Source: a virus | Reading direction: 5' to 3' (one strand) | Virus record (IMG/VR): IMGVR_UViG_3300040801_001280 | Location: 1-35,073 of that record | Length of the DNA stretch: 35,073 bases | The notes under the pieces: model-generated | Seen by the model: the letters and a program-made list of their open reading frames with translations, nothing else | Database searches by the model: none | What the model was told of the DNA's origin: nothing | Position numbers and translations under genes: made by a program | In this document: positions 440-30,586 of the stretch, piece after piece | How the letters are laid out: each line of letters begins with the position of its first letter | Position numbering within the stretch: position 1 is the stretch's first letter

Positions 440-2767
440 TTAGTAGGTTCTTGCTCCTATTACTAACATATGTGTTCCGTCTCAAATACATTTAATTACA
501 GCCTTATCGTTTTGGTCTAATACATAAGACTCAGGGCCTCCTGGAAATAATCAGTCACCACTAAAATCTAGTGTATAAGGTCCAACTGTTGTAACATCTA
601 ATATAAAAGTATATTCTGCTCCAGTCACTGCATTACTTGGAGTGGCTATTGTTGTAGTTTCCCCAATGGTTACTTGGTAGATATGAGAATCCTGTCCAGT
701 TCAAGCAACAGACCCTGCAGTAGATGTTACAGTCGTAATGTCTGAACCAATAACATTAGATGTAATGTAAGTATCTACGTCTGAGTCTGTATACCTAGTA
801 TCATCCACGTAAGCTTTATCTACTAAAGATCGAGACGTATAATCTAAAGCATAATCGGCATTATAAGTTCAACCGGCTGTTCCTGAAAATACCGCTGTTT
901 TAGTACCAGAATTTACAGACATACCTGTAGTACTATTTAAACCTGTAAATGTAATACTGTTATTATCTCCTGTAAGAGTTCTATTACCAGTTAAAGTAGC
1001 ATCAGTCTCGTACAGGTTTGTTAGATAAGAAGTATTAGTTAGAATAGTGTTAACATCTCCTTGAACTTCATGTATAGCATTTTGAACGTTGCTAGCAACG
1101 ATATTTCCGTTAGGAACGAAAGGTAACTCTGATGCTGTTGTAGGTATACTTAAATTGTCTAACTCAGTTTGAAGTTCCTCCAAAGCTGTTTGAACATCAG
1201 TAGATGTTAGATTACCTGTAGCAGATACAGTTATGTTAGAAGCTGCATAAGTACTTGGTATAGTGATGTTATCTATATCCGCTTGCAACTCTAAAAAGGC
1301 TGCCTGCGCCGAAGTAGAGCTTAAGTTTCCAGAAGGACTAACAGTAATATCAGCTGCAGCATAACTACTAGGAACTGTTATACCATCTATGTCTCCTTGT
1401 AATTCTTGAAGTGCAGCCTGTACATCTGTTGAGCTTAAGTTGCCCGTGGGGCTGACTACAATAGCATTAGCATTATAACTGCTGGGAATACTAATACTTT
1501 GAATATCACTATCTAATTCCTCTAAAGCGTTCTGCACATCAGTAGAAGATATTGAACCAGCAGGAGTTACGGAGATACCACTGGCATCGCTTATAACATT
1601 TATACTATCTATCTCTGTTTGTAATTCTTCTATAGCTGCTTGAACATTTACAGAAGTGGTGTTTCCGCTGGGTGTAAATGTTATATTATCTGCAGCTCCT
1701 GTAACTGAGATACTATCTAACTCTGTTTGCAGCTCTTGTATGGCACTTTGTACATCTGTAGAGGTAGTGTTACCACTCGGAGTAAAAGTGATCTCAGAGG
1801 CGCTCTGAGAGACTGTGATACCTGATATTTCATTGTCTACATAAGCTTTATCTACTAAAGACCTAGTTGTGTAGTTAGCAGAGTAATCACCGCTGTATAC
1901 TATACCTGCATTACTGTTAAAAGTAAACCCAGCTACTCCATTAAGAGTTACTGCTAAGCTACCAGGACTACTCCAAGTCAGGGAAGATAAGTCAGAAGTA
2001 ATAAAATTTACCTGTCCTAAATCATCCATAACAAAGCTGTGAGTGGCAGCATCTACAGTAACATTAGAGGGGAGTATCCCACCACCATCATATATACCAT
2101 TTCCATCAGAACCTCCTGCTGCTAATATATCTATATCCCCTTGAAGCTCATTTAAGGCGTCTTGCACAGAAGAAGACATTAAGTTACCTGAAGGCGTTAC
2201 AGTTATATCAGAGGCTGCGTAACTAGAAGGGATGGTAATATTATCTACATCTGTTTGAATCTCCTCAAGGGCGTCTTGCACGTTAGTGGAGGTAGTACTA
2301 CCAGTAGGAGTAAAGGTAATATCACTGGCTGTACCTCCAACAGATAGATTATTGATATCGTTTTGTAACTCTTCTAAAGCGGCCTGTACATTTGTAGAGG
2401 TTAGATCTCCACTAGGGCTTACACTAACTCCAGCTGCTGTTGAGGAAGCCCCGTTACTTATTGCTGTAACTCGACCTTTTGCATCCACAGTAACATCAGC
2501 TGAAGTATACGTTGCGGGCATAACGCCTACATTATTAAGTTCCCAAAGATTACCATTACTGAAGACTGTTATATCTCCTTTATTGCCGTCTGCAATTGAA
2601 GCGGAAATATCAGCATTAACTTCACCTCTTTCTATCGCTTCATTTAACCACTCTACTAAAGAGAATTTAGATTTATCAGAAGCTAGAAAGGACCTTGGAC
2701 CAGCAGAAGTTGCTTCAAGATCTTCTGTTTCGCCTAAGAAATACTTGGGTAGTAATACATCTTTCAT
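440..2767 (-). CDS. Repeat-containing tail fibre protein
   Basis: A 775-residue protein read through four in-frame UGA codons (all in the last 155 residues, for example GTAG-UGA-TYN and SGD-UGA-LFP). Residues about 110-600 hold ten imperfect copies of a 35-45-residue unit with the pattern A-(S/A)-x-I-x-(F/V)-(T/S)-P-x-G-(N/S)-x-x-S-T-x-V-Q-x-A-(L/I)-x-E-L-Q-x-(D/E)-(I/L)-D, as in elongated trimeric phage fibres. The segment YTSRSLVDKAYVD occurs twice in near-identical form, flanking the repeat block. The first ~50 residues (KYFLGETEDLE, VEWLNEAIERGE) resemble the start of the 111-residue protein at 9894-10229, suggesting a shared attachment module. The start codon overlaps the upstream stop (TAATG), so translation is probably coupled. 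Role: virion fibre, probably receptor binding; inferred. Confidence 0.8.
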
Positions 2768-3820: not shown

Positions 3821-6079
3821 TTAGGGTTCGGGTACATAAGCAAATGGATTATCAGTAGGACCTCCAGCTCCAGGGAAACCGAAGCAATAAGCATCTCCAT
3901 AATGTGTAGCTGCATCATACGTAAGCGTATTACCAGATAAAGTACCTCCAGTTTCATTATAAGAAACAGAGTCAAGTGCTTCTTGAAATACACCTGCAGA
4001 ATTATAAATAGCGCCTCGGATGCTTCCTCCAAGATCTAAAGACCAAGTATCACCGGGAACCCACTTAACTCGCATATGCTTATGCTTTACTCGGCCAGGA
4101 TTATCATCTCAACCTGAAGGACAAGCTACTAAAGGAGAAGGTTCAAAAACCAATGAGCTAGGAATACTTGCTGTACTATTATATTGAACTACTAGGTCAT
4201 TTAGTGTATTAATTAAAGTAATTAAGGCTGGGACAGTATAACCATCCGGATCGCTAACTACATTTTGGTAATCAGAACCACCTAAAGCTGTTCCTGGTCC
4301 TGCAGGAACATTTGATGCAATAGTGTTACCTTGCCAAGTTAAGTTATCTATATTTACTGCTGCAAGACTGCTTGCAGATATTTTAGCGGAAGTAACATCT
4401 ACATAAATATCAGCATAAGTATAGTTAGTTGGTACAACATAGTCTCAACTAGCAAGACAATCATTAGCATCTTTAACCCAATAAGTATAGGTACCTGGGG
4501 CAGTTGGTTTGCCTGCTCCAGCAAAACTAACTCAAGGACCAGAAGAACTAACTGAACTATATTCGTAAGGAGGTGTACCCCCTGAAGTATTGAAGAAGAT
4601 ATTTGGACCACTTTCAGTTCCTGTTAGAGTTAACACTGCAGGCTCATTAACAGTGAATTCGACAGCAGTACTTAAAGTATCTCCTGTAGCATCTCTAACT
4701 TCTGCGCCATAATCACCTTGAGGTAAATCAGTCCAAGGGTTATTGATATTTCGCCAACCTCTAACTTCAGTTCCTCCTTGCAACAATCTATATTCAAAAG
4801 GAGCAACGCCTCCTGTTGTACCAGTAATAACGAATGTTCCATCATTTCCTCCATTACAAGACACATCAGATACATTCAGACTAAAGTCTGTAAAGTCTGG
4901 GCTAACATCAAAACTAAAAGTATCAGTTACTACACACCCATTAGCATCAGTAACTCCTATAGTATAAACTACGTCTGATTGTAAATTAGAGTATGTATCT
5001 TGGCTAGCATAAACATCTCCTCCATTGTTTACACTTAAATTACTGTATGTATAAGGAGAGACTCCTCCAGTAGCAACTTGTTCCAAAGTATATGTTTGGG
5101 TTAATGGGTCACTACTAATAACGTTAGCAGTGATATTTAAAGGGTTTGCACTTGCTAAAGGTCCAACGTTTTGAGTGTAAGTATCCCCTGAAATATCTCT
5201 GACAGATAGACTATAAACTTGATCAGGAGCAAGATTATTAAAAATAGCAGAAGACTGTCAAGGACCGCCATCTAAACTATACTCATACGGTCCAACTCCA
5301 CCAGCAACTTGAAAAACTTCAATAGACGCATCATTTGCTCCAACACATTGTTCTGGAGTTTGTATAGTTGCTATATTACCGATAGGCTCTATATTAGTAA
5401 CATTTAAAGTAACTTCTATGTGACATCTCTCGCAAGCGGAAGGATCACTATCGTCATAAGTAAAAGTTGAAGTTGGGTCAAACCTAAAAGTATAGGTGCC
5501 TTGCTGCCCAACACTAGGACCTGATGGATCAGTCATAATCTGAGATAGATCAACTACACTTCCTGAAAGTATATTTGAAGGGCTTGTAGGACTACTGGAA
5601 ACTTGGGTCCAAGTTCCTGGAACTAGTTGATTAGGATTACACAAGGCATTGCCATACACAATATCTCCTGCAGGCTGGCTTATAGAATCAGTTATAACTA
5701 GTTGCTCTAAATCAACAGTGGTAGGTGTGTTACTCCCAGAAAAATAATCTATATCAACACTGATTTCAGGTAAGTCTGCGCCATTTCGTCTGGAACATAG
5801 AGGTATTACTTCTATAACATGAAAAGAGCTATCATAGCACCCTGTCGTACCTACTCTATATTCAAGTCGAATAAAACCTCCAGGTTGTAATGGTGGAAAT
5901 TCTACATTAAAACTATAATTATACCCACCCAAGTAAGTGTCTAAAGATACACCGCCTAGATTAGCTCAAGGTCCAGTAGAGCTATTAAGATTGTACCCCT
6001 GGAAGTATCAATCCCCATCTAGGGGTACAGCCTGATTTTCAAATAAGGTTTGGCCTAGGTTAACAAAACAACTTGCCAT
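3821..6079 (-). CDS. Large tail protein with SprB-type repeats
   Basis: A 752-residue protein, continuous only with UGA=Trp (six UGA codons, including three in the context GP-UGA). It contains several modules like the SprB repeat of Bacteroidota surface adhesins. Marks are G-G-V-x-P-(Y/F)-(T/E)-Y, YSLDGGP-W, VxDANGC and SGGTPPYEYS, each about 80 residues long and rich in Asn, Thr and Gly. The N-terminal 200 residues are different (MASCFVNLGQ, GGYNYSFNVEF) and contain many Cys. The C-terminus (after about residue 620) has a separate domain ending AYVPEP. It forms a block with the three following Ig-like proteins. Role inferred: tail or baseplate surface protein using host-adhesin-like folds. 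Assignment to an exact virion position is not possible. Confidence 0.8.
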
Positions 6080-6118
6080 CTTTTATAAAATGATTAAGCT
6101 TATATAAAATAAAAAATC

Positions 6119-6826
6119 TTATGCTGTAGGATCATTACATACAGTAAGAGTAGTATCATCTCCAGCAAATGGAGTTTCAGTGATTGTAAAGGTTATAGTA
6201 GCTTGGTTAGTACAGTTAGTACACCCAGGGTTACCTTCAGTGTTAGTAACAGTATAGGTGAAAGTAGCCTCAGTACCGGTGTGTAAAGAAGGGTTAAAAG
6301 TTGCTTCAGTTGCACTAGCTCCGCCAGAATAGCCTGGAGAAGAAATACTTCCAGTCCACTGTCCAGTTATTGCTGGAAGGTTAGGAGGAGTTACGTTACC
6401 ATTGTTTTGAGGAGGGCTTAGCCAAGCTCCGCCTCCATCAGGGGATACACCACCTTCGAGTATAGAATATAGAACATAGTTTACATTATCAGTATCACAT
6501 TTTGTAATATTGATTGTTTGTCCTGCTAACACACCATCTACTACAATAACGGTAACTTCAGCACTATCAGTACAAGCGGCTCCGCCAGTAACAGTATAAG
6601 TAAAAGTATAGTTACCTGAAGGTACGTCATCAAAGATTACCACAGGAGCATCTGAAGAACCAACAGCATTACCGTTAGCAAGGCTTTCATCAACTCCATT
6701 AATATTAAGAGTTACAGGAAAGCTTGGAGCTGCAGTAATGAACCAATTACCTCCTGTGTCAGGATTTGCAGTAGCTCCTTCAACAGCAGTAGGTAAAACA
6801 TCAAATAAATTATAAGAACAAGCCAT
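6119..6826 (-). CDS. Ig/SprB-like tail-module protein
   Basis: A 235-residue protein without UGA codons. It begins MACSYNLFDVLP and is composed of beta-rich stretches of alternating Thr/Val with YTFTYTVTG and ATFTYTVTN motifs, typical of bacterial Ig-like or cadherin-like repeats. Cys pairs (CTNCTN) lie near the C-terminus and FAGDDTTLTVCN closes the protein. The motif AG-x-D-x-T-x-x-V-C is common at boundaries of Bacteroidota gliding and adhesion repeats. It lies between two other proteins of the same style and was probably made by duplication within this cluster. No signal peptide is present, so it is a virion component rather than a secreted phage protein. Function inferred only from composition and place. 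Confidence 0.7.
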   Translation of the reverse strand: MACSYNLFDVLPTAVEGATANPDTGGNWFITAAPSFPVTLNINGVDESLANGNAVGSSDAPVVIFDDVPSGNYTFTYTVTGGAACTDSAEVTVIVVDGVLAGQTINITKCDTDNVNYVLYSILEGGVSPDGGGAWLSPPQNNGNVTPPNLPAITGQWTGSISSPGYSGGASATEATFNPSLHTGTEATFTYTVTNTEGNPGCTNCTNQATITFTITETPFAGDDTTLTVCNDPTA

Positions 6827-6862
6827 GATTAAAAATTATTTGTTATATATTATTATTTATTA

Positions 6863-7585
6863 TTAAAGATTAAGATTAGGTGAAATATTCACATTAAAAA
6901 TACCTTCAAAAGCGGAAGCTACTCTAATGTATATTTCAGTCGGGCTTCCTGAGGTAAGTACCTGTACAGGAGGGGTTTGAGCAACTATACCATTGGCTGC
7001 TGCAGCATGAGATAACTCAGCTAGAGTATCACAAGTACCTGAATATAAAGCTACCATAGGTGTGTTTGCGGCGTCTTGCCCGAAAGGTACTCCGTCTACA
7101 GTGACTATGATAACAGGGTCTACACCTCCAGATGGAGTTACGATACACTTATACCACAAGTCTTGTGCGGGTGGAGATACGCCAACTGATGTGAAGGCTG
7201 AAGACCAAGAAGAGGGTAAACTTACACCGCTATCTGTGGGGCCAGCTTGCCTAGGACAGTTGCTTGCAGTATTTACAGAAAGAGCACTAGCTCCGAAAGT
7301 TTCCCCTCATGTTAAAGGGTTAGATGAACCACACACATCGTTTGTCCTAGGTGGGGGAGTTATAAGTTCTACAGTTATAACTTTAGTATCGCTTTCAGTA
7401 GCAGTAGTATTTTCTACAGTGTATTCGTAAGCATAAGTACCTGAAGCAAAACCTGTGAAGTCTATAGCTGCATTCCAACTAACTGGAGCTGAGGGTGAAG
7501 GGGTTAGCACACTAATATCAGTTCATGTCCCCCCTTCCTGTGCATTAGGCCCTAAGTGATCGTGTAAAGTTACTATTAAAGACAT
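6863..7585 (-). CDS. Ig-like/PPC-like tail-module protein
   Basis: A 240-residue protein with two UGA codons (GGT-UGA-TDI near the N-terminus and NPLT-UGA-GETF at about residue 93). The first part is an Ig-like repeat (GTYAYEYTVENT). The second begins NDVCGSSNPLT-W and ends in a jelly-roll-like stretch with DLWYKCIV and VALYSGTCDTL, which resembles bacterial pre-peptidase C-terminal or CUB-like beta domains that bind cell surfaces. The start is 1 base after the stop of the 7587-9062 gene. Part of the tandem Ig-like tail block; carbohydrate or receptor binding is inferred. Confidence 0.7.
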
Positions 7586-7586
7586 A

Positions 7587-9062
7587 TTAATTACATAGAT
7601 TTATAGTGTCAGAGTCGCCTGCACAAATACTCTCTATAGTTACTGTACCTTCATTTTCAGAAATAGTACCGAATGAATCTCGTACAGTGTAAGTAAAGGT
7701 ATCTACAAAAGACCCAGACTGATTAGGTGTATATGTTACTAAGTTACCATTAATACTAATTGTTCCAAGAGTAGGCTGACTTACAATGGTAAGTGAAGAT
7801 ATATCTAAAGGCGGACCACTTACATCATTCTCTAAGACATTTACAGTTACTGGAGCACCACAAACACTACAAGCCTCATCATCTACTAGTATAGGAGGAT
7901 CTAAGCAATCTAAAAGAGTATATACTCCTGCTTGAGCACATTGTCCTGAATCATTACAAACAGTTCAGATTATACTTTCAGTAACAATAGGATCTGGCAC
8001 TTGGTATCTAATAATGTGATCACCTGTTACAGGATCATTCACAAGTGTAACAGAAGGAGAAGTTAAACTAGCTAAATTTAATATTTCAAATTGAGACCAA
8101 TCTATCGGAGATGTTGATATGACATTATCTTCAATTAATATGTCTATTTCAGTAACTCCTGGAGTTATAGCATCACAATCTAAGTTTATGTTCTCAGGGA
8201 TAATAGTAATAGTATTACCAGTTCCGCATTGAGGTACAACAAAGCTTATACTTCCAGCATTAGAAGTTATACCTGCTGCGTTAGTTACAGACCAGTCACC
8301 TCCATAAGTTCCAGGAGTAACAGTTGAGTTAGCTATAAATCTTCATTCTTGAGGGTTGTCTGTAGGTATAGCACTAATGCCAGTAGGAAGAGTAAAATTA
8401 ATTGTATTTCAATCAATAGGAGTAGTACAGTTTGTAGGACTAGGGAAAGTCACTATTACAGACTGGGGTGTAGGGCCTGTTGTAGACCCTCGACTCACAA
8501 CACAATCCATAGGTATGGATACATTAGATACTTGAGGTACACATAAAGGAAAAGTTAATTGTTCAGTAACCTCACAGTTATTACAATCTGTGACTGTTAC
8601 AGTTGCTACTGCATTGATAGGTGTATTACCTAAGTTGTCTCTAATACGTAACTGTAGAGAACTTGAGTAGTTACTACTGTTAACATTAACTTCTTCAAAT
8701 ACATTTTGATTATAACTCCATTCAAAACTAAGGGAGCTGCAGGAATCAGAAGAAGCTGTAACATTAAAGGTATAATCTTCTGTTCGGGTTATACCATTGA
8801 GAACAAGCCCCGTACATTGATCTACAGCTGGTATATCTATTGAAGTGGTGCAGCCAAGACCGTCTACAATTGTCACAGACATTGTTGCAGTATCTCTACA
8901 AAATTGATTTTCGTAAGTTATTGTATTAAGTATAGCAGGAGAGTTGCTCACTCCTACAGGATTTGAAAAAGATACACAATCTGTATCAGAGAAAAATTGA
9001 TAAGTATAAGGTGCTACACCCCCACCAGCTACACTAACTTGTATATTTTGTGTTAATGACAT
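7587..9062 (-). CDS. Multi-domain Ig/SprB-like tail protein
   Basis: A 491-residue protein, continuous only with UGA=Trp (three UGA codons: TPID-UGA-NTI, PQE-UGA-RFI, SII-UGA-TVC). It starts with a SprB-like unit (VAGGGVAPYTYQFF) and continues through several Cys-containing beta modules (VTDCNNCEV, LFPLCVPQV-like strands). It ends with a cadherin/tandem-95-like repeat: VNVLENDVSG, LVTYTPNQSG and FTYTVRDSFG are its usual marks. These folds are established as cell-surface adhesion modules in Bacteroidota. Their presence in a phage tail cluster suggests exchange with host adhesin genes or convergent use for receptor contact. Confidence 0.75.
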
Positions 9063-9065: not shown

Positions 9066-9389
9066 TTAAAGGGTATTGATATTTAAAATGATAGGCTCCG
9101 TACAACCACCTGTTTGTGTTAACGTATTAACGGTTATCTGTAAATCACATGTAATTACAGTAGGATTGCATATGTTAGTCTGCTCATAAAGGTTAAATTC
9201 ATCACAATAACAGTCTAAATCTATTTCACAAGTATCCTGACTTAGTAACTTTATGCAGCGTATATATTCCTGGGCTTTACTTTCATGACAATCTATCAGG
9301 TAATTTTTATCCATTATATCCTGATAAAGATCATAAACTAACGCACAAGCTAAATTATTTACAGTTACAGGGATCTTTTTGTGCATCAT
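9066..9389 (-). CDS. Small Cys-rich tail-module protein
   Basis: A 107-residue protein that I do not recognise. It is helical in the first half (LACALVYDLYQDIMDKNYL) and Cys-rich in the middle (DTCEIDLDCYCDEF). The C-terminus reads as a short beta tail (LQITVNTLTQTGGC) like the start of the neighbouring Ig-like proteins. The start lies inside the end of the upstream gene (35-base overlap), and its own stop is 3 bases before the next start, so it is translated from a polycistronic message. It pairs with the preceding Cys-rich protein at 9355-9882, which has a similar helical segment with CDECDCKYGC. The two may be a diverged duplication. Confidence 0.65.
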   Translation of the reverse strand: MMHKKIPVTVNNLACALVYDLYQDIMDKNYLIDCHESKAQEYIRCIKLLSQDTCEIDLDCYCDEFNLYEQTNICNPTVITCDLQITVNTLTQTGGCTEPIILNINTL

Positions 9390-9882
9390 CTGGATTATTT
9401 AGGTTATCTATTAGTTCTTTGAAAATTGCACACCCATACTTACAGTCACATTCGTCACACGATTCCAAATATTCTAAACTTTCAATATACTTGTATACAT
9501 CAGAGTTAGGATATTGAGCTAGATGTTCTATATACTCACAGTAAGTCTGACATAAAATTGCAGAACAAACAGTATCTTCATTACTAGATCCGTTGGGACG
9601 TGCAATTCTTAAAATAAAGCTATAGACTCCGTCAGGAAAACTAGTCTCTGTTAATCCAATATCCTGGGGCGCAATAACTAGATTTCAACCTTCTACAGAA
9701 TCTGCATTTATAGGATGATTACGCACATCAATAGTAGGAAAAGCCATATCACAGTTACAAATAATATCTAAGGTTAGAGTTCAGTTGCCTGGATTCCCAG
9801 CATTTACCCAGTCTGTTAAATCTTCAGGGTCGAACAGTTTAAAATAGGAGCAATCTTCAGCTTTTTCCAGTCTTAAGTTCAT
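9355..9882 (-). CDS. Cys-rich tail-module protein
   Basis: A 175-residue protein that exists only with UGA=Trp (UGA at PGN-UGA-TLT and VEG-UGA-NLV). The N-terminal half is beta-rich, with a strand pattern like fibronectin/Ig modules (WNLVIAPQDIGLTETSFPDGVYSFILR). The C-terminal half is helical and Cys-rich (CSAILCQTYCEY, SCDECDCKYGC, DPCNCK), similar in layout to the downstream 107-residue protein. Cys clusters in a cytoplasmically assembled virion protein suggest metal binding. Function unknown; it belongs to the tail module by position. Confidence 0.7.
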
Positions 9883-11712: not shown

Positions 11713-12438
11713 TTATTCATTCATCATCGCCTTATTAAGGGCGATTTGATATTTGTTGGAATCTTCCACATAACCAAGAGCTATAGCTACTGCTTCATCT
11801 ACAATCTCAGACCGTACATGTACAGGTAGTTCAGAGTCTTGGGGTGGATAAGTATTTCCATCAATGTATGTATACCCACCGAAGTGAATTCTAGCGGGTT
11901 CTTTTAAGTATTCAAAACGTACATGATTTACGTCATGAGTACCTGGGTAAATATATATGGATGATTGTCCACTACTATCAGAGGACCGCCCAAAATTAAA
12001 CGGTAATGAGTTATTATCAGGACCATTAAATGGGTCACTCAAGATTTCGTTTAAATCATCATGTTGGATATGTCTTAGGCTTATCCAGTTACATCCATCT
12101 ATATAGGCTTGTGCCCTAATGAAGAATAGATAGGGATGTACTAAATCTGATAGGTTTATCTCATAAATACCATCTTCTATAAGAGTTGGTACTATGTCTG
12201 GTTGCTCAGGAAACTTAACCATAATAGTCTTTAAATCGTCTATTCGTTTTTGGTTTCCTTCAAAACCAGTTCTATATGAATTGTGAACACCATACTTTTT
12301 CTTGAGTAATTGAGACTGAGCTTCATTAAGCATTCAATCTATTTCAGCAGTATTAAAGTCAAAGTTAGTTAATGAATCGACTTTATCTGATTTAAGTTTG
12401 AAATCAAAGTGCTGATCTCGTACGGTTACAACATTCAT
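11713..12438 (-). CDS. Probable head-tail connector-type protein
   Basis: A 241-residue protein whose true start lies upstream of a UGA (TAEID-UGA-MLNEAQ), adding 35 residues to the frame seen under the standard code. The start codon overlaps the stop of the 12438-14358 gene (TAATG), indicating coupling. The sequence is an alpha/beta protein with LVHPYLFFIRAQAYIDGCNWI and ends in a helical segment (IVDEAVAIALGYVEDSNKY). Its size and its place two genes after the MCP match small connector or adaptor proteins of crAss-like phages. This is inferred from gene order; no family signature is seen. Confidence 0.6.
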
Positions 12439-14358
12439 TACTCACCTAATTTAGCTTTTATTTCTTCTTCTAGTTCTTCTACCAAAGCATCTTTCTTAGG
12501 ATTCATGATGAAGTCAACGGCCTCAGAGAGAGTCTCTCCAATTGTAATAAGTCCTTCTGACCGATTCCAATTATATCCGCCTTGCTTCTCATATACAACT
12601 CGTGCATCAATGGCTTTTTGCAGCAGTACTCTAGCCTCTAGCTCTTCACGACCTTTTGCATTTGTAGTCAACTGGAATATTTCAGTAAACTTATCAATGT
12701 TTGAACCATCAGTATAACCTGATTTATCAATAAAGTCAAAGAGTAGGTTGTGTACTTGCTCCTCAGTAAGATAAGCAGTAGCTTTTGCAAGACCGAGAAC
12801 AGTTACAGTTTTACGCTTAGTTACAGGATCCATATTCTTATGGTGTAGTTTAGCGAAAGCTTCAGACTTAATCTGAGTTCTCTTGTACTTGATTTCTTCA
12901 GCTTCGTTCTCCAGAGCAATATAATGAGTAGCTTTTGGCCACTTATGTGCTCTTCACTCAGCCTCAGAGTTAGCTATAAACTTTGAGTCTAGGGCTACAT
13001 AGTAAAACATAGCATCTTCGAAGTTAGCCAGATCCAACACTGTTGAACCGTCATTTAACTTCCATGAGGCAGTTTGAAAATACGGCATATCATCATGCTT
13101 AGTAGAATCTCCCCGTCTCCATGCTCTGTTATTCAAATAACCTTTAGGTAGGTTCCAACGCTGTTCTTCACGATCTTGTAAAGTTAGCTTGTTACCAGCC
13201 TCATCAGTCTTTTGCTTACCCTTTTCCATTCACGGCTTGTAAGAAAGGCCGTTTGCCAAACCTCCATACTTGGGGTTATACAAAGCCATGATTGTATCAC
13301 GGCACCGGCCTATCTTAGTTTTCTTAAGTTTCTTTCCAGAAGTATCATTGGTCCAATCGGAAACTTTAGTAGCAGTTTCTCGTGGGATAGATTGGATAAA
13401 TACTTTAGTTGAAGTCTTTGTTAATGTCATTGTCATTGTATAGTCATTTATAATTCGCTTCCCAATGCTCATGGAGCCTACCCGAATTCAGGCCTTATTA
13501 GATTACATTAGAATTAATATAAGTATGTATTACTACCACTCGTAGTCATAGCTTTTTGTTATCGTAAAGGCTTTTTATCCTTTACTTCTTACACTTAATT
13601 TTCGTGTAAGTTCGGCATAAATTTTCCCTTTAATAAGGGTGAAGCACTCGTGGGGGAATTATTACTTCCATATTGTTCATCCCCTATGCTCTACACTGCT
13701 CTTGGTCTAAGAGTTAGCACGGTGTTGGCATTTCAGCGTCCACCGTTTTTGCTTCATTTTTAATTGACCTATGTTTTATTAGTCGTTCGATTCAGGCTTC
13801 AAATTCTTCTACTGTTTGTTTATTCTTTGCTCAGTTGCAATGTTTGCAGCAAGCTACAATATTATCTTTTTCGTAAGGTTTATCAGAGTCTAATCTGTCT
13901 ATACCGTTGTAGAAGAAGTCTTTACAGTAATTATTTTTAGATTTATAATGATTTGTTCTCAGAGAACCACAATAATAACAAGGTTTAATTAAAAATTCAG
14001 CCATTTCATCTTTAGAAATGTCAACGTAAATATTTCTTTTCTTTGCGTTTTGTTTAAACCTATTTCAGATATTATTGATAATTGCTCTGCAATCAGGAAG
14101 TTTATTGTTTTTTCCGTTCTTACTCTTAGATTCCAATGCTAGACAGCCGCAGGATTTAATCTTACCTGATTTGACATCCTTGCCTCTAGCTATAATTGAA
14201 TTCCCACAGTCACAAACAAACTCAAAAGCTGCCCTTTTTTTATTATCTGTACCTTCTAAAAAATAACCTGTGATTTGCTTTAAAGTTAATCTGCCGTATT
14301 TCTGTTTGTTAAATTTAACTCCAGATATAAAACTCGGATCTGTAACTAATTTTGCCAT
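12438..14358 (-). CDS. Virion-associated protein, probably split by a group I intron
   Basis: The main exon (about 12438-13469) encodes about 344 residues and is continuous only with UGA=Trp (LSYKP-UGA-MEKG and NSEAE-UGA-RAHK). A proposed first exon (14344-14358, MAKLV) joins in phase 0 at SIGKRIIND. This rests on a 7-base P1 pairing between exon end ATTAGTT and GACTAAT just before the intron core, with U-G at the splice site. The 3' junction has two in-phase candidates and no convincing P10, so the exact join is uncertain. Without the join the gene would start at 13472 or 13436. The protein is mixed alpha/beta with a charged helical C-terminus (VEELEEEIKAKLGE). It directly follows the MCP gene, so a capsid or connector role is inferred. 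Confidence 0.65.
13470..14343 (-). mobile_element. Probable group I intron with HNH gene
   Basis: The minus strand at 13760-13560 has a group I core. It shows the P4/P6 arrangement ACGGTGG...CACCGTGCTAA, very like the T4 td intron (ACGGGG...CCCGTGCTAA). A P8-like hairpin CTCTTAGACCAAGAG follows. The internal guide candidate GACTAAT lies between the HNH frame and the core, so the HNH gene would sit in the P1 loop, as in the capsid intron at 14473-15205. The P7 element is less canonical than in the other introns of this window, and the boundaries are tentative. Confidence 0.6.
13714..14358 (-). CDS. HNH homing endonuclease sharing the host gene start
   Basis: A 214-residue protein with three UGA codons read as Trp (INNI-UGA-NRF, HCN-UGA-AKN, FEA-UGA-IER). 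The N-terminal half is a small zinc-type domain (GRLTLKQITGYF, FVCDCGNSI, GKIKSCGC). The C-terminal half has the HNH-like pattern CYYCGS, NGIDRLDSDKPYEKDNIVACC and KHCNWAKN, with the two Cys pairs that bind zinc. Its first five codons are also the proposed first exon of the host gene. Unspliced RNA would then give the endonuclease and spliced RNA the virion protein. The C-terminus runs into the intron core. Confidence 0.8.
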
Positions 14359-14374: not shown

Positions 14375-17300
14375 CTAATATTCATATTCAAAAATCAATT
14401 CACCACCGCGAGTTACGTCCTTCATCCAGACACCCATGGTACCTTCAGTGAACATATCGTAACCTGCCTTCACATTTTGTTATCGTAAGTTTTTTAATTT
14501 TCTTACCTCTGCAATTTTATATTTAGATTATATTTGCAGTTCAGACTATATCATCAAGCTATTTGCTTGCTCTGCGCTCGTGGAGTTTCATATTCCTCTT
14601 AGGAACGTATACTCTAGTCGTTGCACCTTCAAAAGCATTGCTGCTTAAGCTTGGCTCAGGATTATCTATCTCTAGACTTCCCCTGAATTCACAGAGTTTA
14701 GTTTTACTTGGTGCGCTGAAATAAGCGCTACTTTACTTAAGAACTCTTGTTGGGTTAATGAACCTTTCATAATATTACAAGTTCCACAACAAGTTACACA
14801 GTTATTTTTTGTGTATCCTAGCTCATTATTTGCTCTATCTATACCATTATATTCTATGCAATTATTCTTAGAAGAACATATTAAAGATGATAATTCACTA
14901 TTACAGTAAGAACAGTTTGAAGTTACCAAACCTTTAAAATTTGTATAAGACAGAGTAAATTCTAAATCTCTATCCTCAGCTGCTCGCTTATATTTTTTGT
15001 ATAGACGTTTATAAGCAACTTCAGGATTTACTTTACGTTGGTATCTGTTACAGCCACAAGATTTTCTACTTTTAATAGAGTCCTGTCTTTTCTTTGTAAC
15101 ACTGCCGCAAACAGGGCATTTATAATCAACGTAAGTTCGTTTTTTCATTAGGGATTTTTCTCTAAGCTAATGCTAGTTCCTTTTCAGTAGTTTTATTTTT
15201 AGTTAACGCACCAACCTGGCCGCCCATTACAGGACCGGTTGGAGTGTGAGTACCTGCCAGGTATCCCCAGCGGTAAGTATCCTTAACTTTCAGCATCATG
15301 ATGTTGTTATCACCACCAGATGTACCGAAATCAAGGAATGTCATACGCATAGAATCAATAGGGAATTCTGGGTACTGTGGGTGCATACGCTTGCAGTACT
15401 TACGAGAATCATACAGAGGGTTCTTGATAAGAGTTACCTCGATACCTTCTGGTCCTTGCTTTATCTTCAGTATGTATCGTTACTACATACCCGCTGTAAC
15501 TTTATACAGCTGCTACATATTACTATGTAGAGGAGACTATATCATAGTTGCTTCTTGCAACTCCTGCCGCTTCGGAGTACTTACTCCTACTAGTCTTTCT
15601 TTTTACATCTAATTTATATCTCATACATTCTATTCTGTTAACATATTTATGTACTATTGATATAAATTTTCTAGCCTCTTTAGTAGCACACTCTAATATA
15701 TAAGAGCCTGCATGTTTACGTTGTCTAAACTTAACATCTCATCTGTCTTTAATAAAATCAATTAACTCTTGATTTTCCTCTTTACTTAAATGAGTAGAAA
15801 TTCTTAACAACGAACCTCTTATTTTACCCGTTTTTTTATTTTTTAATTTAGTTAGTGACCCATCATCCATATATCATATTGCTAAGTGTAAAGGGTCAAA
15901 CTTCTTTAAAATTTTTGGGGTAATAGTTTTTTTAGGTCTATAAAGTATTTTTCTGTATAACTTTGTGTATCTGGAAGCTCCAACAGAAAAATAATAAGCA
16001 ATATATTTTTTGTTATTAATCTTTTGTTTTATAGGGCTTACTTTATAACCTAATTTTTTTAAGAGGTTTCTTTTCCACTCTAAATATTCTAATTGTTTTT
16101 CAGAGTGTAAGATATTCAAGTTACCATATTTATCTAAGTGACCGTCTCCGATTACCATTGATAATCAAGTAACTTTGGCTTGTTCTGTAATTTTTTTTGA
16201 CATTAATCGTACATTTTAAAATGACGTTTTGAAAGCTTTAATAGTCGTTGAACCTTCTCTAACTTTTTAGAGCTTGGCTGCTGATTGTCCTTTATACACA
16301 AGGAGTTTCCAGCAATTCAACAGGTTTATTAGACTCACTACCAAGATCGGTCGTATCTTCTGTATAATAGTGAGTGAACTGTGCACCAAAAGAAAGGTGA
16401 CGTGGGTTCTCGCTCAACTTCTGAGTGAAGTGAGTATCTACAGTCAAGAAAGAAGCTGATTCTGCTGCCAGCATATCATGGAACATCATTGCATATTATT
16501 CGTATATAGTTCGTTAAGCTATATACCGGGATTTTACCCAGCTACTAATTACTTAGTAGAGTAGACTATATCATCATCCATCCTTGCTACTGATGGAGTC
16601 TCCTGTTTCGGACCACTTGATCCTACTCCCTTTCGGGATAGTCGTTGAACATTTCTAGAATAAATCAGTTTAGCTTGCTCGATAAATTCAGGTGCTGTAA
16701 GAGTACCTTTCATATAATTGCAAGTCGAACAACAAGCTACTGTATTGTCACAGTGATAACCTAAATTAGAGTCTAATCTATCAACTCCATTATAGGTTAA
16801 TAATTCGTTTGATAATCTATCTTTACGAGAATTAGAGTTAAGCTTTCCACAATAAAAGCACTCGCTAGTTATCATAGAAGTAAACTCTTCTCTAGATAAA
16901 TTAAATTCTAAATTTCTTTTTAAAGCGGCAGTTTTATAAGCATTATAAATATATCTATACTTTTCTACGTCGCTTCTATTTTCTGCGTAATATTTACGAG
17001 AACAAACACCACAACCAGCAAAACCTTTAGCTTTTAAGTCTTTAGTTTTAGTTTTCATCTCTCTGGAACCAAATACTAACTCAGTTCCACAAGAGCAGGT
17101 AACATAATATTTTTTACCCTCTTTATGAGTGATAGTCAGATTACCTATAACTTTTCCTATTGTGTATTTATTCTTCATAATTATTATTCTAGACTTTGCT
17201 GCTGATTGTCCTTAAGCCGCTACAGCTAAGGAAGTCCCAGCAATTAAAGAGATTTTTCGACTATGATTGCTCATAGAAGGGGCCATTGATGTTAACCCAA

Positions 17301-19086
17301 GAGTACCAGTCATAGCTACAACCTTACGGTTTTGCTCATCAACACGGCTAAAGAAGATATCCATGAGGTAATTCTTCAGACGCTCTACAGTAAGAGCACC
17401 GTTGTAGTACTCAATCCAAGAGTCACGCAATTGCTCACGAAGACCTGGACCTGTCTTCTTCCAGTAACCAGTAGAAGATGGTTGAGTCTGCTTCTTACCA
17501 TACCAAGCCTGAGCTTCCATGGACTGATATACATTATATTCAAATAGCTTCGCTAATGCTATTCCGCTAATTATACTAGCTGCTTTACATTTCTGTAAAG
17601 ATTAGACCATATCATAACCCTCTTATTTAAGTAGGGTTCCCTCCGCTTCCACTCGGCTTCGAGTGTACTCCGATGTCTCGGATGGTCGTTGAACGTTATA
17701 ATAAATTTTTTCTATGTGGTCTATAAATTCTTTGTAACTCAACTTATGTTTAGCAAAGTTGCAAGTTTTACAGCAAGGTACAACATTAGTTGTACAATAG
17801 CCCACTTCTTGTTCCATTCTATCTATACCTTGGTATGTTATATTCAGCATACCAATTTTAGATGTGTTTGAAGGTTTTATACCACAATAATGACAATTAG
17901 ATTTAAACAATTCTATAGATTCCTTAAGAGTTAAACTAAAAAAGTAACCTCTTCTTTTTGCCTCTCTTTTATATCTATTATAAATAGGTTTGTATAAATC
18001 TATATCAGAAATTGTGCTTCTTTTGAACTTATTCATACAAAGCTTACAAGCAGCATAACCAAATTGTTCAAGCTGCTTCTCTCTATAGGAAACTATTTGA
18101 GCAGAACCAGTTATTGTAGTTCCACACTTACATTTTAAAGTGTAATAAGATTTATCACTATAATCTGTGATAGTCATGTCTCCTATCTGAGTTCCAATTT
18201 CGTAGGTCATTATAATTTTAATTTATTATCTTCGCTGCTGATTATCTTCATCTTCACATGTTAAGACTTCCCAGCAATTCAAAGGGTTTGCTTTAGCTGA
18301 TTACGCAGCTAAGGAGCTATACAATAACTCATCGTGCATCTTAGCTTCGTACATAGGTAGGAAGGATGAAGCTTTCTGCTCTTTACCTGTCTTAGGGTCA
18401 GTGTACATAAACTCTACGCCCAACTTACCTTGGTCACGCCATGCTTTATCTGTTACAGTAAACTTCTGTGCGAATGCGCCTACTTGGCTCTCCAGCTTAA
18501 AGCTAGAAGGAACCTGCTGAGTACCGAACTGATCGTTGTACTCAGAAGCAACGCTTGTCCATACCTTAGAGAATTCACGACCTTCCTCTAACAGGTAAGG
18601 TGGGAAGAATACGGTAGGATCATCACCCTGAAGACGTACTGTGTAAATGTAACCTGCGCCGTCCTGCTCAGGAGTTCCGATGATTTCAAGTGGGAAGTCG
18701 TTGTCCTCACCCATCAGAACGTCAGGCTCTGCGTAGTAATCCAGATCCAGCTTGATGCGGAAAGTGGTATTGTTAATACCTGGAGTTGTATTAGATGACT
18801 CAACATTTTCTAGAATGCGAGCACATTTTTCTTCTGCACCTTGTAGGTACCAGCGGTAAATTTCTGTATCAATCTCCTTAGTACCATAAGGCTTAGCACC
18901 GGTCATACCCGTGAGCATCTTACCTGTGAAGAAACGAGATTTAGAAGAGAAGATCTTCTGTAAAGTGTTCTCGAATACGTGTGGCTTACCTGTTTCGTAA
19001 GCTGCACCAAGGTACTGAGAATCTACAAAATTACCACCGAAGCCATCATAATGCTTTATAATAAATTGACTTTTAGTAGTTGCCAT
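14375..19086 (-). CDS. Major capsid protein, five exons
   Basis: The exons are about 18327-19086, 17295-17531, 16343-16491, 15206-15467 and 14375-14472, joined in frame to about 501 residues, a normal size for crAss-like MCPs. Junctions rest on group I P1 pairings: GAGT with GCTC, TTGGGT with GCCC, CTT with GAG, and GGTGCGT with GCGCACC. P10 pairings support the first (TATAT with GTATA) and last (TGAA with TTCA) introns. The 5' boundary of exon 3 is good; its 3' end is uncertain by a codon or so. The spliced product starts MATTKSQFIIKHYDGFGGNF and contains MTGTLGSMMFHDMLAAESA and EGTMGVWMKDVTRGGELIF. All Trp codons are UGG. Order after portal and scaffold supports MCP. The identity is strong by context, without a structural match. 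Confidence 0.82.
14473..15205 (-). mobile_element. Group I intron 4 of the capsid gene
   Basis: Core elements on the minus strand are AATTCAGGGG (P3/P4), GATAATCCTGAGCCAAGC (P4/P6/J6-7), AAGGTGCAACGACTA (P7) and GATATAGTC (P7'). The guide GCGCACC lies just before the core and pairs over seven bases with the exon end GGTGCGT. The bases before the guide (TTCA) pair with the next exon (TGAA). The HNH gene therefore occupies the P1 loop. Confidence 0.88.
14672..15148 (-). CDS. HNH homing endonuclease (capsid intron 4)
   Basis: A 158-residue protein. It has an N-terminal zinc-type segment (YKCPVCGSVTKKRQDS, RKSCGCN), then the HNH-like core: CSYCNSEL, NGIDRANNELGYTKNNCVTCC, GTCNIMKGSLT. Paired Cys motifs bind zinc in this family, and the D-x-A-x-x-x-x-G-Y stretch forms part of the beta-beta-alpha metal site. 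It contains no UGA. Its role is to cut intronless alleles of the capsid gene and so spread the intron. Its end overlaps the start of the ribozyme core. Confidence 0.85.
   Translation of the reverse strand: MKKRTYVDYKCPVCGSVTKKRQDSIKSRKSCGCNRYQRKVNPEVAYKRLYKKYKRAAEDRDLEFTLSYTNFKGLVTSNCSYCNSELSSLICSSKNNCIEYNGIDRANNELGYTKNNCVTCCGTCNIMKGSLTQQEFLSKVALISAHQVKLNSVNSGEV
15468..16342 (-). mobile_element. Group I intron 3 of the capsid gene
   Basis: The core lies 5' of the endonuclease gene: TTGAATTGCTGGAAA (P3/P4), GGACAATCAGCAGCCAAGC (P6/P4'), AAGGTTCAACGACTA (P7). The P7' strand GATATAGTC lies at the end of the endonuclease frame. P1 is short (CTT with GAG), like cyanobacterial tRNA-Leu introns. 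The intron end is set to a G before AAG by reading frame, and nearby in-phase sites are possible. Confidence 0.82.
15523..16203 (-). CDS. LAGLIDADG homing endonuclease (capsid intron 3)
   Basis: A 226-residue two-motif enzyme read only with UGA=Trp. The first LAGLIDADG motif is VT-UGA-LSMVIGDGHLD near residue 18. The second is LAI-UGA-YMDDGS near residue 110; AIWYMDDGS is the normal form in intron endonucleases of this family, so UGA stands for Trp. A third UGA lies in IKDR-UGA-DVKF. The two acidic residues of the motifs (D in GDGH, D in MDDG) are the expected metal ligands. The C-terminus overlaps the intron P7/P9 region and the stop is TAG. Confidence 0.88.
16492..17294 (-). mobile_element. 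Group I intron 2 of the capsid gene
   Basis: The 5' junction CTTGGGT|TAAC matches the exon end of the T4 td intron, and the guide GCCCC pairs with TTGGGT. Core: TTTAATTGCTGGGA, GGACAATCAGCAGC, GTTCAACGACTATCCC (P7) and GATATAGTC (P7'). The HNH gene lies between P6/P4' and P7. Splicing joins MTGTLG to SMMFHD in frame. Confidence 0.88.
16549..17178 (-). CDS. HNH homing endonuclease (capsid intron 2)
   Basis: A 209-residue protein. An N-terminal beta segment and zinc-type motif (IGKVIGNLTITHKEG, YVTCSCGTE, GCGVCSRKY) are followed by the HNH-like core (CFYCGKLNSNSRKD, NGVDRLDSNLGYHCDNTVACC, STCNYMKGTLT). The last 40 codons overlap the intron P7 to P7' region, so the C-terminus (after about residue 165) is probably constrained by the ribozyme rather than by protein function. 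No UGA. Strong similarity to the proteins of capsid introns 1 and 4 shows a family that spread within this genome. Confidence 0.85.
   Translation of the reverse strand: MKNKYTIGKVIGNLTITHKEGKKYYVTCSCGTELVFGSREMKTKTKDLKAKGFAGCGVCSRKYYAENRSDVEKYRYIYNAYKTAALKRNLEFNLSREEFTSMITSECFYCGKLNSNSRKDRLSNELLTYNGVDRLDSNLGYHCDNTVACCSTCNYMKGTLTAPEFIEQAKLIYSRNVQRLSRKGVGSSGPKQETPSVARMDDDIVYSTK
17532..18326 (-). mobile_element. Group I intron 1 of the capsid gene
   Basis: P1 is GAGT|TATTGTATA|GCTC. P10 pairs the next exon TATAT with GTATA just before the guide. Core: TTTGAATTGCTGGGAAG, GATAATCAGCAGC, GTTCAACGACCATCC (P7) and GATATGGTC (P7', with a compensating change from GACTA/TAGTC to GACCA/TGGTC). That covariation supports a conserved helix. 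Confidence 0.88.
17623..18210 (-). CDS. HNH homing endonuclease (capsid intron 1)
   Basis: A 195-residue protein. The N-terminal domain (IGTQIGDMTITDYSDKSYY, LKCKCGTTI, YAACKLCMNKF) carries two Cys pairs. The HNH-like core is CHYCGIKPSNTSK, YQGIDRMEQEVGYCTTNVVPCC, KTCNFAKHKLSYKEF. No UGA and no Trp at all. The C-terminus reads through the ribozyme P7 to P7' region. Role: homing of intron 1 into intronless capsid genes. Confidence 0.85.
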   Translation of the reverse strand: MTYEIGTQIGDMTITDYSDKSYYTLKCKCGTTITGSAQIVSYREKQLEQFGYAACKLCMNKFKRSTISDIDLYKPIYNRYKREAKRRGYFFSLTLKESIELFKSNCHYCGIKPSNTSKIGMLNITYQGIDRMEQEVGYCTTNVVPCCKTCNFAKHKLSYKEFIDHIEKIYYNVQRPSETSEYTRSRVEAEGTLLK

Positions 19087-25147: not shown

Positions 25148-26924
<1,777 letters not shown>

Positions 26925-26960: not shown

Positions 26961-27359
26961 CTACTTTCATTGACTCTCCACATATTTTATACGTGTTAAC
27001 TGTTTTTCTGTATATTTTCCATTTCTAGGTTTAGCTTTCTGTATTCTGCACAGTAGATTTTTACGATGTCTTTTTTTAGGATGGTGCAATTCTACGCGTT
27101 TCAGAATTTCTATTGCTGCTTTATCCCAATATTTTAAATCATAAGAATCTTGGTGTGTTGATTCCCTTGCTCTTTTAATAGCTAGAGAACCTCTTATAGA
27201 TAACTCATCTTCAATGAACTTTCTTATCTTTTTTAGTATTGAGAGTTCATTATTATGAAAACTAACTGTCGCAGATTTATTCCTAGTTTTTCTTGGTCTA
27301 ATATAAGCTACAGAACCATCTGCATCTATAAATGCAGAAATATAATTTCAGTTAATCAT
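26961..27359 (-). CDS. Single-motif LAGLIDADG endonuclease (tmRNA intron)
   Basis: A 132-residue protein with one LAGLIDADG motif (YISAFIDADGSV, metal-binding Asp in DADG) near the N-terminus, so it should act as a homodimer. Two UGA codons are read as Trp (MIN-UGA-NYI and ESQ-UGA-K). It lies 3' of the ribozyme core, in the P9 region. Its stop codon TAG is the last three bases of the intron, so the catalytic terminal G is also the last base of the stop codon. Length matches single-motif enzymes. Role: cutting the T-loop region of intronless tmRNA genes. Confidence 0.82.
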
Positions 27360-27588
27360 GATATTCAGATTTTATTGGACTATATCATTACCCTCAACTT
27401 AATGTTAGGGTACTGGACGCTGTTTCACCTCTGTTGGGTTACTTCCTGTTATTAAGACTATTCGCATAGTCTCAGGTAGTCTCTGAACCTTCCTACTCTG
27501 TAGGCTTGGCTGCTGATTGGGATCTCTCCGTTCCAGCAATTCATCCAGTTATACAATTAAAATTTCTTTTAAAAGGGTCCGACTCTTG
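26961..27588 (-). mobile_element. Group I intron in tmRNA T-loop
   Basis: P1 pairs the exon end GGTT with GACC. P10 pairs the 3' exon CGACTC with GAGTCG just before the guide over six bases, fixing both boundaries. Core: GATGAATTGCTGG (P3/P4), CCAATCAGCAGCCAAGC (P4'/P6), AAGGTTCAGAGACTA (P7) and GATATAGTCC (P7'). Group I introns in the tmRNA T-loop are known in some bacterial genomes; here the host is a phage tmRNA. Confidence 0.9.
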
Positions 27589-27884
27589 AACCGATGTCTT
27601 ATGTATTAAGGCTTAATGCCCGCAGGGGTTTGGGTTAGTATTTATAAGGACTCTACAGTCCGGGCGCAGTTTTCTCTAGAATAACTACTATCCTACTAGT
27701 ACGGGTACCAGTTCGGTCGAGTATGGAGTATGCGACTCAGGCTCCATTTCCTGAGGAATTTCCAGGCTGCTAATAGCAACGGGAAGTTCTTGTTCAAATG
27801 TGTTGCCAGTTAAAGGCGGTTTGTTGCGGTTTGGTATACATTAAGTCTATGGAATACATAATCGAATGCCTGTTACGTCCCCAT

Positions 27885-28170: not shown

Positions 28171-28841
28171 CGATACCACTACAGTTTTCACTGCCAATGT
28201 TAATTGTTTGTAGTCTGGACTTTATCTTCATCATATTTATCTTTAATAAATTCTTTAAAGGTCTTTCCGTTAGCTTGATTATAATCTGCTTCAGCAGAAT
28301 TAAACCCGCTCCGAAAAGCTTCTTCTAAGTCTTTTAAAGTAAACTTAGATGGATCCCGTAAAGTCTCTACACTCGGCTTTACGCCTAGCTCGGTATTACC
28401 ATTGTCAAAGGCTTCACCGACTTGGGGATCTGCACTTACTGCGTTTCCACAGCAAGGCTCCAAATTAAAGTTATTTTTATATTCTTCTAATAAGTGTGTT
28501 TTCTTACTAGACCTAGTTATTTTGGTTATGGGTAGAATATAAAGGTCAAAAGTGTTAACATCAACACCGACAAAATAATCAACATCTAAGCAAGAATAAT
28601 GATGCTGTTTGTGTTGTGTTTTAGAGTGTGTTAGCTTTCTGAAAGTTAACTCATTATTAGAATTAGTAACTTTAATTTGTAATCTATAGTACTGATTATT
28701 AGTCTCAACTATAAAATCACATTTAGAATCATAGTTAACTTCTTCATATACGTTAAAACCTTCTAACAAAAATTTTGCTTTAACTATATGTTCAGCTGCT
28801 AAACCTTTCTTTACTTTTGACATAATTTTAATTTTTTCTTG
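28171..28841 (-). mobile_element. Group IC3-like intron in the anticodon loop
   Basis: It matches the layout of the cyanobacterial tRNA-Leu intron. P1 is CTT with GAG, with the endonuclease gene in its loop. P2 follows as GAGCCTTGCTGTGGAAACGCAG. Core: GACAATGGTAATACCGAGC (P6/P4'), GTAGAGACTTTACGGG (P7 region) and a terminal GNRA hairpin GGCAGT-GAAA-ACTG before the last G. P10 pairs the exon CAA with TTG just before the guide. The insertion site (U34|C35) is the classic one. Confidence 0.88.
28200..28823 (-). CDS. PD-(D/E)XK homing endonuclease of the tRNA intron
   Basis: A 207-residue protein. Residues 5-60 have the PD-(D/E)XK pattern seen in I-Ssp6803I, the enzyme of a tRNA intron in Synechocystis. 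Glu lies in GLAAEHIVKAKF, Asp in SKCDFIVE, and Q-x-K in YYRLQIKV. The fold continues to about residue 120 (DYFVGVDVNTFDLYILPI). After about residue 125 the frame runs through the ribozyme P2 to P9 (for example GNAVSADPQVGEAF), so the C-terminal 80 residues are coded by structural RNA and may not be functional. The start is 18 bases into the intron. Length exceeds I-Ssp6803I (150 aa) because of that extension. Confidence 0.8.
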   Translation of the reverse strand: MSKVKKGLAAEHIVKAKFLLEGFNVYEEVNYDSKCDFIVETNNQYYRLQIKVTNSNNELTFRKLTHSKTQHKQHHYSCLDVDYFVGVDVNTFDLYILPITKITRSSKKTHLLEEYKNNFNLEPCCGNAVSADPQVGEAFDNGNTELGVKPSVETLRDPSKFTLKDLEEAFRSGFNSAEADYNQANGKTFKEFIKDKYDEDKVQTTNN

Positions 28842-29867: not shown

Positions 29868-30368
29868 TTATATAATTCCCTGTTCATCTATAGACTCAGG
29901 AATATTTCCGTGAGTGTGAGCTTGTTCTTCTTCCTCGACATCCTTGAGGCATTTTAGATACTGGCTTCACATCTTCTCGGTGTCTTTCATCATTTTATCT
30001 AACATCTCATAGTTTTCTTCATCATAAGGTTTAGAAGCTATGAAGTTAGATCTTTCTTCTAGTTTTTGTTCCCATTCTACTAAGAACTGCTTCTTTTTAG
30101 AAAGTACTAACTTTTTGTAAAGTTCTATAAAATCTTTGTACTTATTTCAATCCATATCAGGAAAGAAATCTTCTTCAATAAGACCTTTCCTCATAGAATC
30201 TGCTGCATTCTTGAACTTAGAGTCTGGATCTATGTATAGAGCAATAGATCACATAACAGAAGATGAATCTATATCTTTATTAGAATATAGTTTCTTAAAG
30301 GGAACTTTTAGTTGAGGATTAACTTCCCAAAAATCTAAATGTGTATCAAAATTATTTAGTACGTCCAT
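29868..30368 (-). CDS. Conserved crAss-type protein of unknown function
   Basis: A 166-residue protein visible only with UGA=Trp (VM-UGA-SIALYIDPDSKF, DMD-UGA-NKYK, EKM-UGA-SQYL). The pattern S-x-x-M-W-x-I-A-L-x-x-D-P-x-S-K-x, followed by a GLIEEDF acidic segment, recurs in crAss-like phages next to the structural module. Mostly helical, acidic at the C-terminus (VEEEEQAH). Its function is not known to me. It ends 17 bases before the spanin-like gene. Confidence 0.75.
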
Positions 30369-30373: not shown

Positions 30374-30586
30374 TTACTTGTCTCTAAGAGACTCTCTGAA
30401 TGTTCCAAAGACAGTCTCGTTTTTAAAATCTATAGTGACTTTATCAGCAGCGCTATGCTTCTTCACCAGCTGGACCCACCACGGGACCGGTTTGATCTTC
30501 GGGCACTTCTTTGTCCACCTTCCTAACCAGAACCCTGCCACCATCGCTGCGGGTAACGATATGAGCATCAGTATTGTCTGTTCCAT
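30374..30586 (-). CDS. Small membrane protein nested in an overlapping frame
   Basis: A 70-residue protein with one N-terminal transmembrane helix (TILMLISLPAAMVAGFWLG) and a basic, then mixed soluble tail (RWTKKCPKIKPVPWWVQLVKKH). Its first 134 bases overlap the end of the 30453-30926 gene in another frame. A nested start inside a gene end is frequent in phage lysis or membrane genes. The helix and Trp-rich interface (PWW) argue for expression. Its stop lies 5 bases before the start of the next gene. Confidence 0.6.
   Translation of the reverse strand: MEQTILMLISLPAAMVAGFWLGRWTKKCPKIKPVPWWVQLVKKHSAADKVTIDFKNETVFGTFRESLRDK

Follow-up and report, generated by a model that had tools for sequence, protein, structure and literature searches.

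Results

Four open reading frames in the block

The IMG/VR virus record IMGVR_UViG_3300040801_001280 is a stretch of 35,073 bases, referred to below as the window. This work concerns a block on its minus strand, positions 3821–9062, which encodes four proteins, gpA to gpD, the largest of which carries an array of repeats of the SprB type found in Bacteroidota adhesins (Table 1). When TGA is read as tryptophan the block consists of exactly four consecutive open reading frames (ORFs) with short gaps between them, and together they fit to the base the interval that a preliminary description of the DNA had given for four consecutive genes. Under the standard code the same interval breaks into short frames, and gpD likewise.

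gpD carries four SprB-type units

gpD matches the Pfam SprB family (PF13573) with 63.6 bits (E 1.2e-17, two repeats counted), against a cut-off of 28 bits. A profile of the repeat unit built from host sequences (76 columns, 106 units from 21 host loci, no window sequence included) finds four full units in gpD with a score of 147.6 bits; the maximum for shuffled sequences was 7.1 (500 shuffles, 456 scored). On six proteins from the fibre slot of the closest relative, G001 (60.8% TerL identity), the same profile scores at most 2.2. The spacing of the gpD units equals that of four-unit stretches of a Flavobacteriales adhesin. Residues ~1–220 have no detectable relatives, and the same holds for most of the C-terminal segment.

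The structure model of gpD is confident only over residues ~233–555 (predicted local distance difference test, pLDDT, mostly 55–93), where it forms an array of immunoglobulin (Ig)-like domains, the remainder being unreliable. In the PDB this array finds its best matches in pieces of the Aureispira grappling-hook filament (GhpA; 9flx and others; 5.4e-9), the closest solved structure but a bacterial filament protein with 16–18% identity; RB49 Hoc (3shs) is also among the matches (9.1e-4). In BFVD the array matches two proteins of uncultured Caudovirales phages named ‘SprB repeat’ (the names are UniProt-derived) and a protein of Polaribacter phage P12002S. A sequence search of the PDB gave no match for gpD and one, at chance level, for gpA.

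Relation to host adhesins

Host genomes were searched within the class of Flavobacteriales UBA5081, the Bacteroidia. gpD matches 215 of 395 genomes at E ≤ 1e-6, a lower bound because two candidates per genome were scored, and its best match has 42% identity over residues 238–552; UBA5081 itself has 110 SprB matches. The host proteins share with gpD the repeat family, the unit spacing and the Ig-like fold, but they reach thousands of residues and carry sorting domains of the type IX secretion system (T9SS), whereas gpD is limited to four units and lacks such a domain. Such a domain, above cut-off, ends four of the five host loci scanned (L109, L110, L114 and L119), and in the fifth (L112) the match is incomplete and runs off the locus. 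None was found in gpA–gpD at E ≤ 1 (TIGR04183/TIGR04131), so these are probably virion parts, and inspection by eye of their N-termini revealed no signal-peptide-like hydrophobic stretch, unlike the adhesin of host locus L104.

Scored against host units, the gpD units reach means of 69–85 and best values of 119–148, figures that are biased upward because the host set is larger and was chosen by similarity to gpD; the corresponding values against units of other phages are 45–59 and 60–85, and the gpD units score 64–85 against each other. A GTDB pattern scan for a close bacterial donor matched 15 stretches, one of which was confirmed, at 30% identity. Within IMG/VR no relative of gpD, gpA or the 9355–9882 ORF was confirmed, and no contig matched gpD's own patterns. 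One weak PHROG match, phrog_26672 (1.9e-7), covers the SprB region, and profile searches did not assign the block only to phage-specific fibre families. The preliminary description had suggested that genes were exchanged with the surface apparatus of the host, or that the phage mimics this apparatus to bind it. For gpD an exchange is supported by sequence comparison, in that the array matches Bacteroidia adhesins, several of them with T9SS domains, but the matches are all too distant to point to a donor or to imply a recent transfer. SprB-type units also occur in proteins of other phages, so transfer from phage to phage is possible as well.

gpA, gpB and gpC

The Big_9 domain of gpA (PF17963) scores 53.3 bits against a cut-off of 23.6 (E 5.2e-14). 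Other matches to this protein all stay below their cut-offs: the NCBIfam model tand_rpt_95 (3e-9), Cadherin_4 and Cadherin_5 (PF17892 and PF17803; 23.6 against 26.5 and 22.4 against 25.1 bits, both overlapping Big_9) and a SprB fragment of 16.7 bits. None of gpA, gpB and gpC reaches the Pfam SprB cut-off, and with the host-built profile their scores are 8.2, 6.9 and 13.1 bits, where shuffled sequences reach at most 9.7, 8.1 and 9.0, respectively; SprB-type units are therefore a feature of gpD, with gpC marginal. The Ig/PKD-type Pfam matches of gpC are all sub-threshold (FctA, 22.0 against a cut-off of 22.1). For gpB no Pfam family comes near its cut-off, the best being K319L-like_PKD at E 0.1. 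A PPC domain (PF04151) gave no Pfam match in gpB at E ≤ 1, nor any PDB match at E ≤ 1e-3 from a low-confidence model (pLDDT 48) whose fold matches were not used. No BACON model appears among the Pfam matches of the block at E ≤ 1. Thus, where the preliminary description had spoken of SprB, Ig, cadherin or PPC-like modules, curated profiles bear out SprB in gpD and Ig in gpA, cadherin falls short and PPC finds no confirmation, while gpB and gpC show repeat similarity only.

gpA matches 27 of 295 Bacteroidia genomes at E ≤ 1e-4, mostly through residues 332–489, gpC 12 of 198 at E ≤ 1e-3 (best 9e-9), and gpB one of 198 at the latter threshold, through residues 5–80 (E 7.3e-5; 0 of 200 shuffles as good). 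gpC and this part of gpB resemble a further repeat of Bacteroidia adhesins, marked by GG-W and Cys motifs, and none of 200 shuffles did as well as gpC against loci L141 and L142. Shuffle tests of gpC against L140 and of gpA against L129, in which the longest open frame was used, gave no signal despite the genome-search matches in those loci. In gpB, residues 76–240 are similar to the N-terminal part of an adhesin encoded by the jumbo-phage record L150 (E 0.019; 0 of 500 shuffles as good).

Table 1. Features of the block and of neighbouring ORFs (window coordinates)
Feature	Position	Strand	Description
gpA	7587..9062	-	491 aa, 3 in-frame TGA; C-terminal bacterial Ig domain and short SprB-like fragment near N-terminus
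Big_9 Ig domain of gpA	7635..7901	-	Residues 388–476; Pfam
gpB	6863..7585	-	240 aa, 2 TGA; Ig-type repeat ~5–80, beta-rich domain ~94–240
gpC	6119..6826	-	235 aa, no TGA; Ig repeats of Bacteroidia-adhesin type, residues ~55–162 and 173–232
gpD	3821..6079	-	752 aa, 6 TGA; four SprB-type units
SprB-type array of gpD	4433..5371	-	Residues 237–549; host-built unit profile
gpD units	5165–5371, 4913–5098, 4643–4882, 4433–4612	-	54.4, 35.8, 38.8, 35.8 bits
Cys-rich ORF upstream of gpA	9066..9389	-	107 aa, 9 Cys; position and size of THB (phiCrAss001 gp39)
Cys-rich ORF	9355..9882	-	175 aa, 12 Cys; position of THA (phiCrAss001 gp38: 215 aa, 11 Cys)
Fibre-like ORF downstream of block	440..2767	-	775 aa, internal repeats, 4 TGA

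The phage and its genetic code

The virion module of the window is recognised by PHROG profiles for the portal (3.6e-121), TerL (3.4e-98) and major head protein (7.7e-29). The best annotated relative of TerL is that of Cellulophaga phage phi14:2 (34.7% identity over 99%), and homologues of phiCrAss001 gp33 and gp34 are present, in order, downstream of the major capsid protein (MCP) gene. By its TerL, portal and MCP homologues and its gene order the phage is Crassvirales-like.

Only a code in which TGA stands for an amino acid gives TerL a complete frame, and under it the portal gene also forms one frame. Two other codes, TAG as Q and TAA as Y, were rejected, as the core genes stay closed with them and are opened by TGA as tryptophan. 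Four of the eight TGA codons in TerL fall on alignment columns where relatives have mostly tryptophan (72/72, 60/~72, 63/72 and 68/69), and tryptophan also dominates at two of the three TGA positions in the 29868–30368 ORF and at both positions in each of the ORFs at 12438–13472 and 30453–30926. This is not the case for the other four codons in TerL, the single one in the portal gene, the third in 29868–30368 or that of 11713–12438. The evidence for TGA as tryptophan from genes outside the block is hence uneven but clear. The block itself lends the code no independent support, because at the three TGA codons inside the gpD array (residues 274, 516 and 545) host repeats carry residues other than tryptophan. 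No in-frame TGA was seen in the aligned parts of 88 loci of relatives, some of which overlap one record, and one locus has one TAA. No tRNA, including a suppressor with anticodon UCA, was found within the 35-kb window. For crAss-like phages, changes of code within short distances, TGA to tryptophan among them, have been reported (PMC7886860).

Position of the block

Downstream of the MCP gene lie the homologues of gp33 and gp34 (the ring protein), a 456-aa ORF common to G001, a 111-aa ORF, the two Cys-rich ORFs, which take the positions of the tail-hub genes of phiCrAss001 (gp38 for THA, gp39 for THB), and then the block. In phiCrAss001 the hubs are disulfide-stabilised and the tail fibres are attached to them. 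PDB sequence searches with the hub candidates or the ring protein returned nothing useful. In phi14:2 the corresponding slot, which follows g088, contains g087, a pectate lyase and a tail protein; their annotation lists them as virion proteins identified by tandem mass spectrometry (MS/MS). In G001 the slot is filled by large ORFs that lack Pfam matches and do not resemble the block. A search of 23 loci gave no match at E ≤ 1e-3 for any of ten window genes between 440 and 10229, and the SprB domain was found in none of 50 records of relatives, many of them fragments, by a search that was positive in the window and in UBA5081. The slot occupied by the block has been replaced wholesale between relatives. 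Beyond the block, the N-terminal region of the 775-aa ORF is weakly like one fibre-slot protein of G001.

Several other features of the region were observed. Cysteine makes up 3.9% of gpA and 8.4% and 6.9% of the Cys-rich ORFs at 9066–9882, and less than 1% of the gene neighbours. The MCP gene, compared with the intact 494-aa protein of G001, is in five pieces (19086–18322, 17562–17296, 16492–16367, 15458–15204 and 14476–14387; window 14387–19086), and matches to group I introns as well as HNH-like ORFs lie between the pieces; a capsid gene in five pieces is already described for crAss-like phages (PMC7886860). Two further group I intron matches lie upstream of groEL, at 27357–27598 (77.3 bits, above gathering) and 28197–28477 (46.3 bits, below). 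The groEL gene, at 25148–26758 (PHROG 6.8e-152), is also present in phi14:2, and an ORF at 31284–31694 appears GroES-like by eye, with no PHROG match.

SprB-type units in other phages

A host SprB array used as query matched 48 of 50,697 phage records, comprising the jumbo record LR756502, Cellulophaga, Tenacibaculum and Polaribacter phages and many enterobacterial phages; where matches in the last group are annotated, whisker or tail proteins predominate, with ~30% identity. SprB-type units were scored in Cellulophaga phage phi19:1 gp98 (53.6 bits), Polaribacter phage P12002L gp28 (49.1) and a homologue in Tenacibaculum phage JQ (39.0). The phi19:1 and P12002L proteins resemble gpD in these units and are encoded two genes after the tape measure, and gp98 is annotated as a virion protein identified by MS/MS. 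Unlike gpD, however, all three proteins have only one or two units and go unrecognised by the Pfam SprB model at E ≤ 0.1, and two of the phages, phi19:1 and P12002L, lie outside Crassvirales, being tape-measure phages. Within the open-access library searched, SprB repeats in phage virions were not the subject of any paper found, the sole co-mention of ‘SprB repeat’ and ‘phage’ being concerned with polymorphic toxins.

Two records deserve separate description. At 8650–13662 of L150 (LR756502.1, a 642-kb uncultured phage record) lies a T9SS-type adhesin of 1670 aa that looks complete: it starts with what resembles a signal peptide, contains 14 SprB stretches and has a sorting domain of type B. 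This may be an adhesin that the phage encodes for secretion, or else the assembly may be chimeric. At 3496–6783 of L149, an IMG/VR contig, a 1095-aa protein joins SprB repeats (2.7e-26) to DUF285 BspA-like repeats (8e-65), and further SprB-like segments are present in neighbouring ORFs on the other strand.

Discussion

We think it rather probable that the block encodes adsorption proteins, comprising fibre shafts and adhesion domains, which would sit at or near the tail collar and are built from tandem Ig-type beta-sandwich repeats like those of T9SS-secreted adhesins of Bacteroidota, the likely hosts. Considering gpD, its four SprB-type units would form an extended shaft, with the N-terminal segment serving for attachment to the virion and the C-terminal segment as a receptor-binding tip. 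The repeats would act both as rigid beta-sandwich spacers, which hold the receptor-binding end off the collar, and as binding surfaces of low affinity, and modules common to phage and host adhesins may confer affinity for host surface material. The array would have been taken from host adhesin genes, either directly or via another phage, and then stripped of secretion signals and adapted to the code with TGA as tryptophan. It is also conceivable that the SprB-type shaft docks on the gliding or adhesin filaments of the host, by repeat-to-repeat contact or through common ligands, and that the phage thus rides or otherwise exploits the moving track of adhesins to reach its site of injection, but this we regard as a long shot.

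Some of the observations weigh against an assignment to collar fibres of host origin. The likeness of gpB and gpC to host adhesin repeats is weak. Attachment at the collar would follow from gene position, and since the hub-candidate ORFs have no sequence similarity to phiCrAss001 gp38/gp39, the hub assignment derives from position as well. Host sequences were present in the alignment behind the gpD model, so that an Ig-like outcome was to be expected and is not independent evidence. Finally, the tree of the units, which is based on few columns, lacks resolution, and although the gpD units form one clade in none of 200 bootstrap trees, a single origin for them is still conceivable.

Ig arrays also occur on T4-like heads, and the block might accordingly encode capsid decoration or head-fibre proteins, Hoc-like in nature, which attach weakly to surfaces or glycans. 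RB49 Hoc is among the structural matches of the gpD array, gpA has a weak match to a Hoc-like PHROG (E 0.6) and head fibres do exist in phiCrAss001. We nevertheless consider this unlikely, as the head-fibre proteins of phiCrAss001 are small (gp21, 97 aa; gp29, 122 aa), and the block follows the hub-gene positions, where phi14:2 encodes its pectate lyase and tail protein. A second alternative is that these are ordinary Ig domains of phage fibres, whose likeness to host repeats reflects an old common fold or long circulation among phages. The presence of SprB-type units in several phages, the ‘SprB repeat’ names in BFVD, the weak matches of gpB and gpC and the unit tree are all compatible with such a history. 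It is made distinctly unlikely by the higher scores, though biased upward, of gpD units against host units than against those of other phages, and by the distribution of gpD matches, which are found in more than half of the host genomes searched and in no IMG/VR contig by its own patterns.

Display on the surface of the infected host, as for proteins of the moron or superinfection type, seems very improbable: a complete T9SS-type SprB adhesin with a type B domain does exist in L150, but gpA–gpD have neither a T9SS sorting domain nor an evident signal peptide and lie within a run of structural genes. That a fragment of a host adhesin was joined to a phage contig during assembly is scarcely credible, for although the record is a single metagenomic one and the block is absent from the closest relatives, gpA, gpB and gpD need TGA as tryptophan (3, 2 and 6 codons, three of them within the SprB array), as do the flanking phage genes, and all genes lie on one strand with short gaps and no host-type ends.

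For adsorption proteins built from host-type repeats, the nearest precedent lies in the BACON proteins. PMC6949934 describes tail-associated proteins with tandem BACON repeats in crAss-like phages, for which horizontal transfer was inferred and host-surface binding proposed. The present case is similar in that a crAss-like phage encodes, near its tail genes, Ig-like tandem repeats common to Bacteroidota surface proteins. It differs in that the units are SprB-type, and in that the phages described there are from the gut, whereas this one reads TGA as tryptophan and has the marine Cellulophaga phage phi14:2 among its relatives. Modular BACON/PKD/Ig proteins encoded near structural genes of crAss-like phages have likewise been described as gut-phage adhesins (PMC13370021); a term search of the main text of that paper did not find SprB, and the binding tested there was to mammalian epithelium, whereas our data have no bearing on animal cells.

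In conclusion, the borrowing of host-surface modules is a known habit of phages, of which an SprB-type array in a Crassvirales-like fibre slot would be a new example. The BACON precedent would thereby be extended to a Crassvirales-like phage beyond the described gut examples, which fills its fibre slot with another host adhesin repeat family, and because the family is a different one, borrowing of Bacteroidota surface modules looks general. For a group that is largely uncultured, the block supplies candidate proteins of host recognition, and proteins of this kind would be missed unless the altered code is applied.

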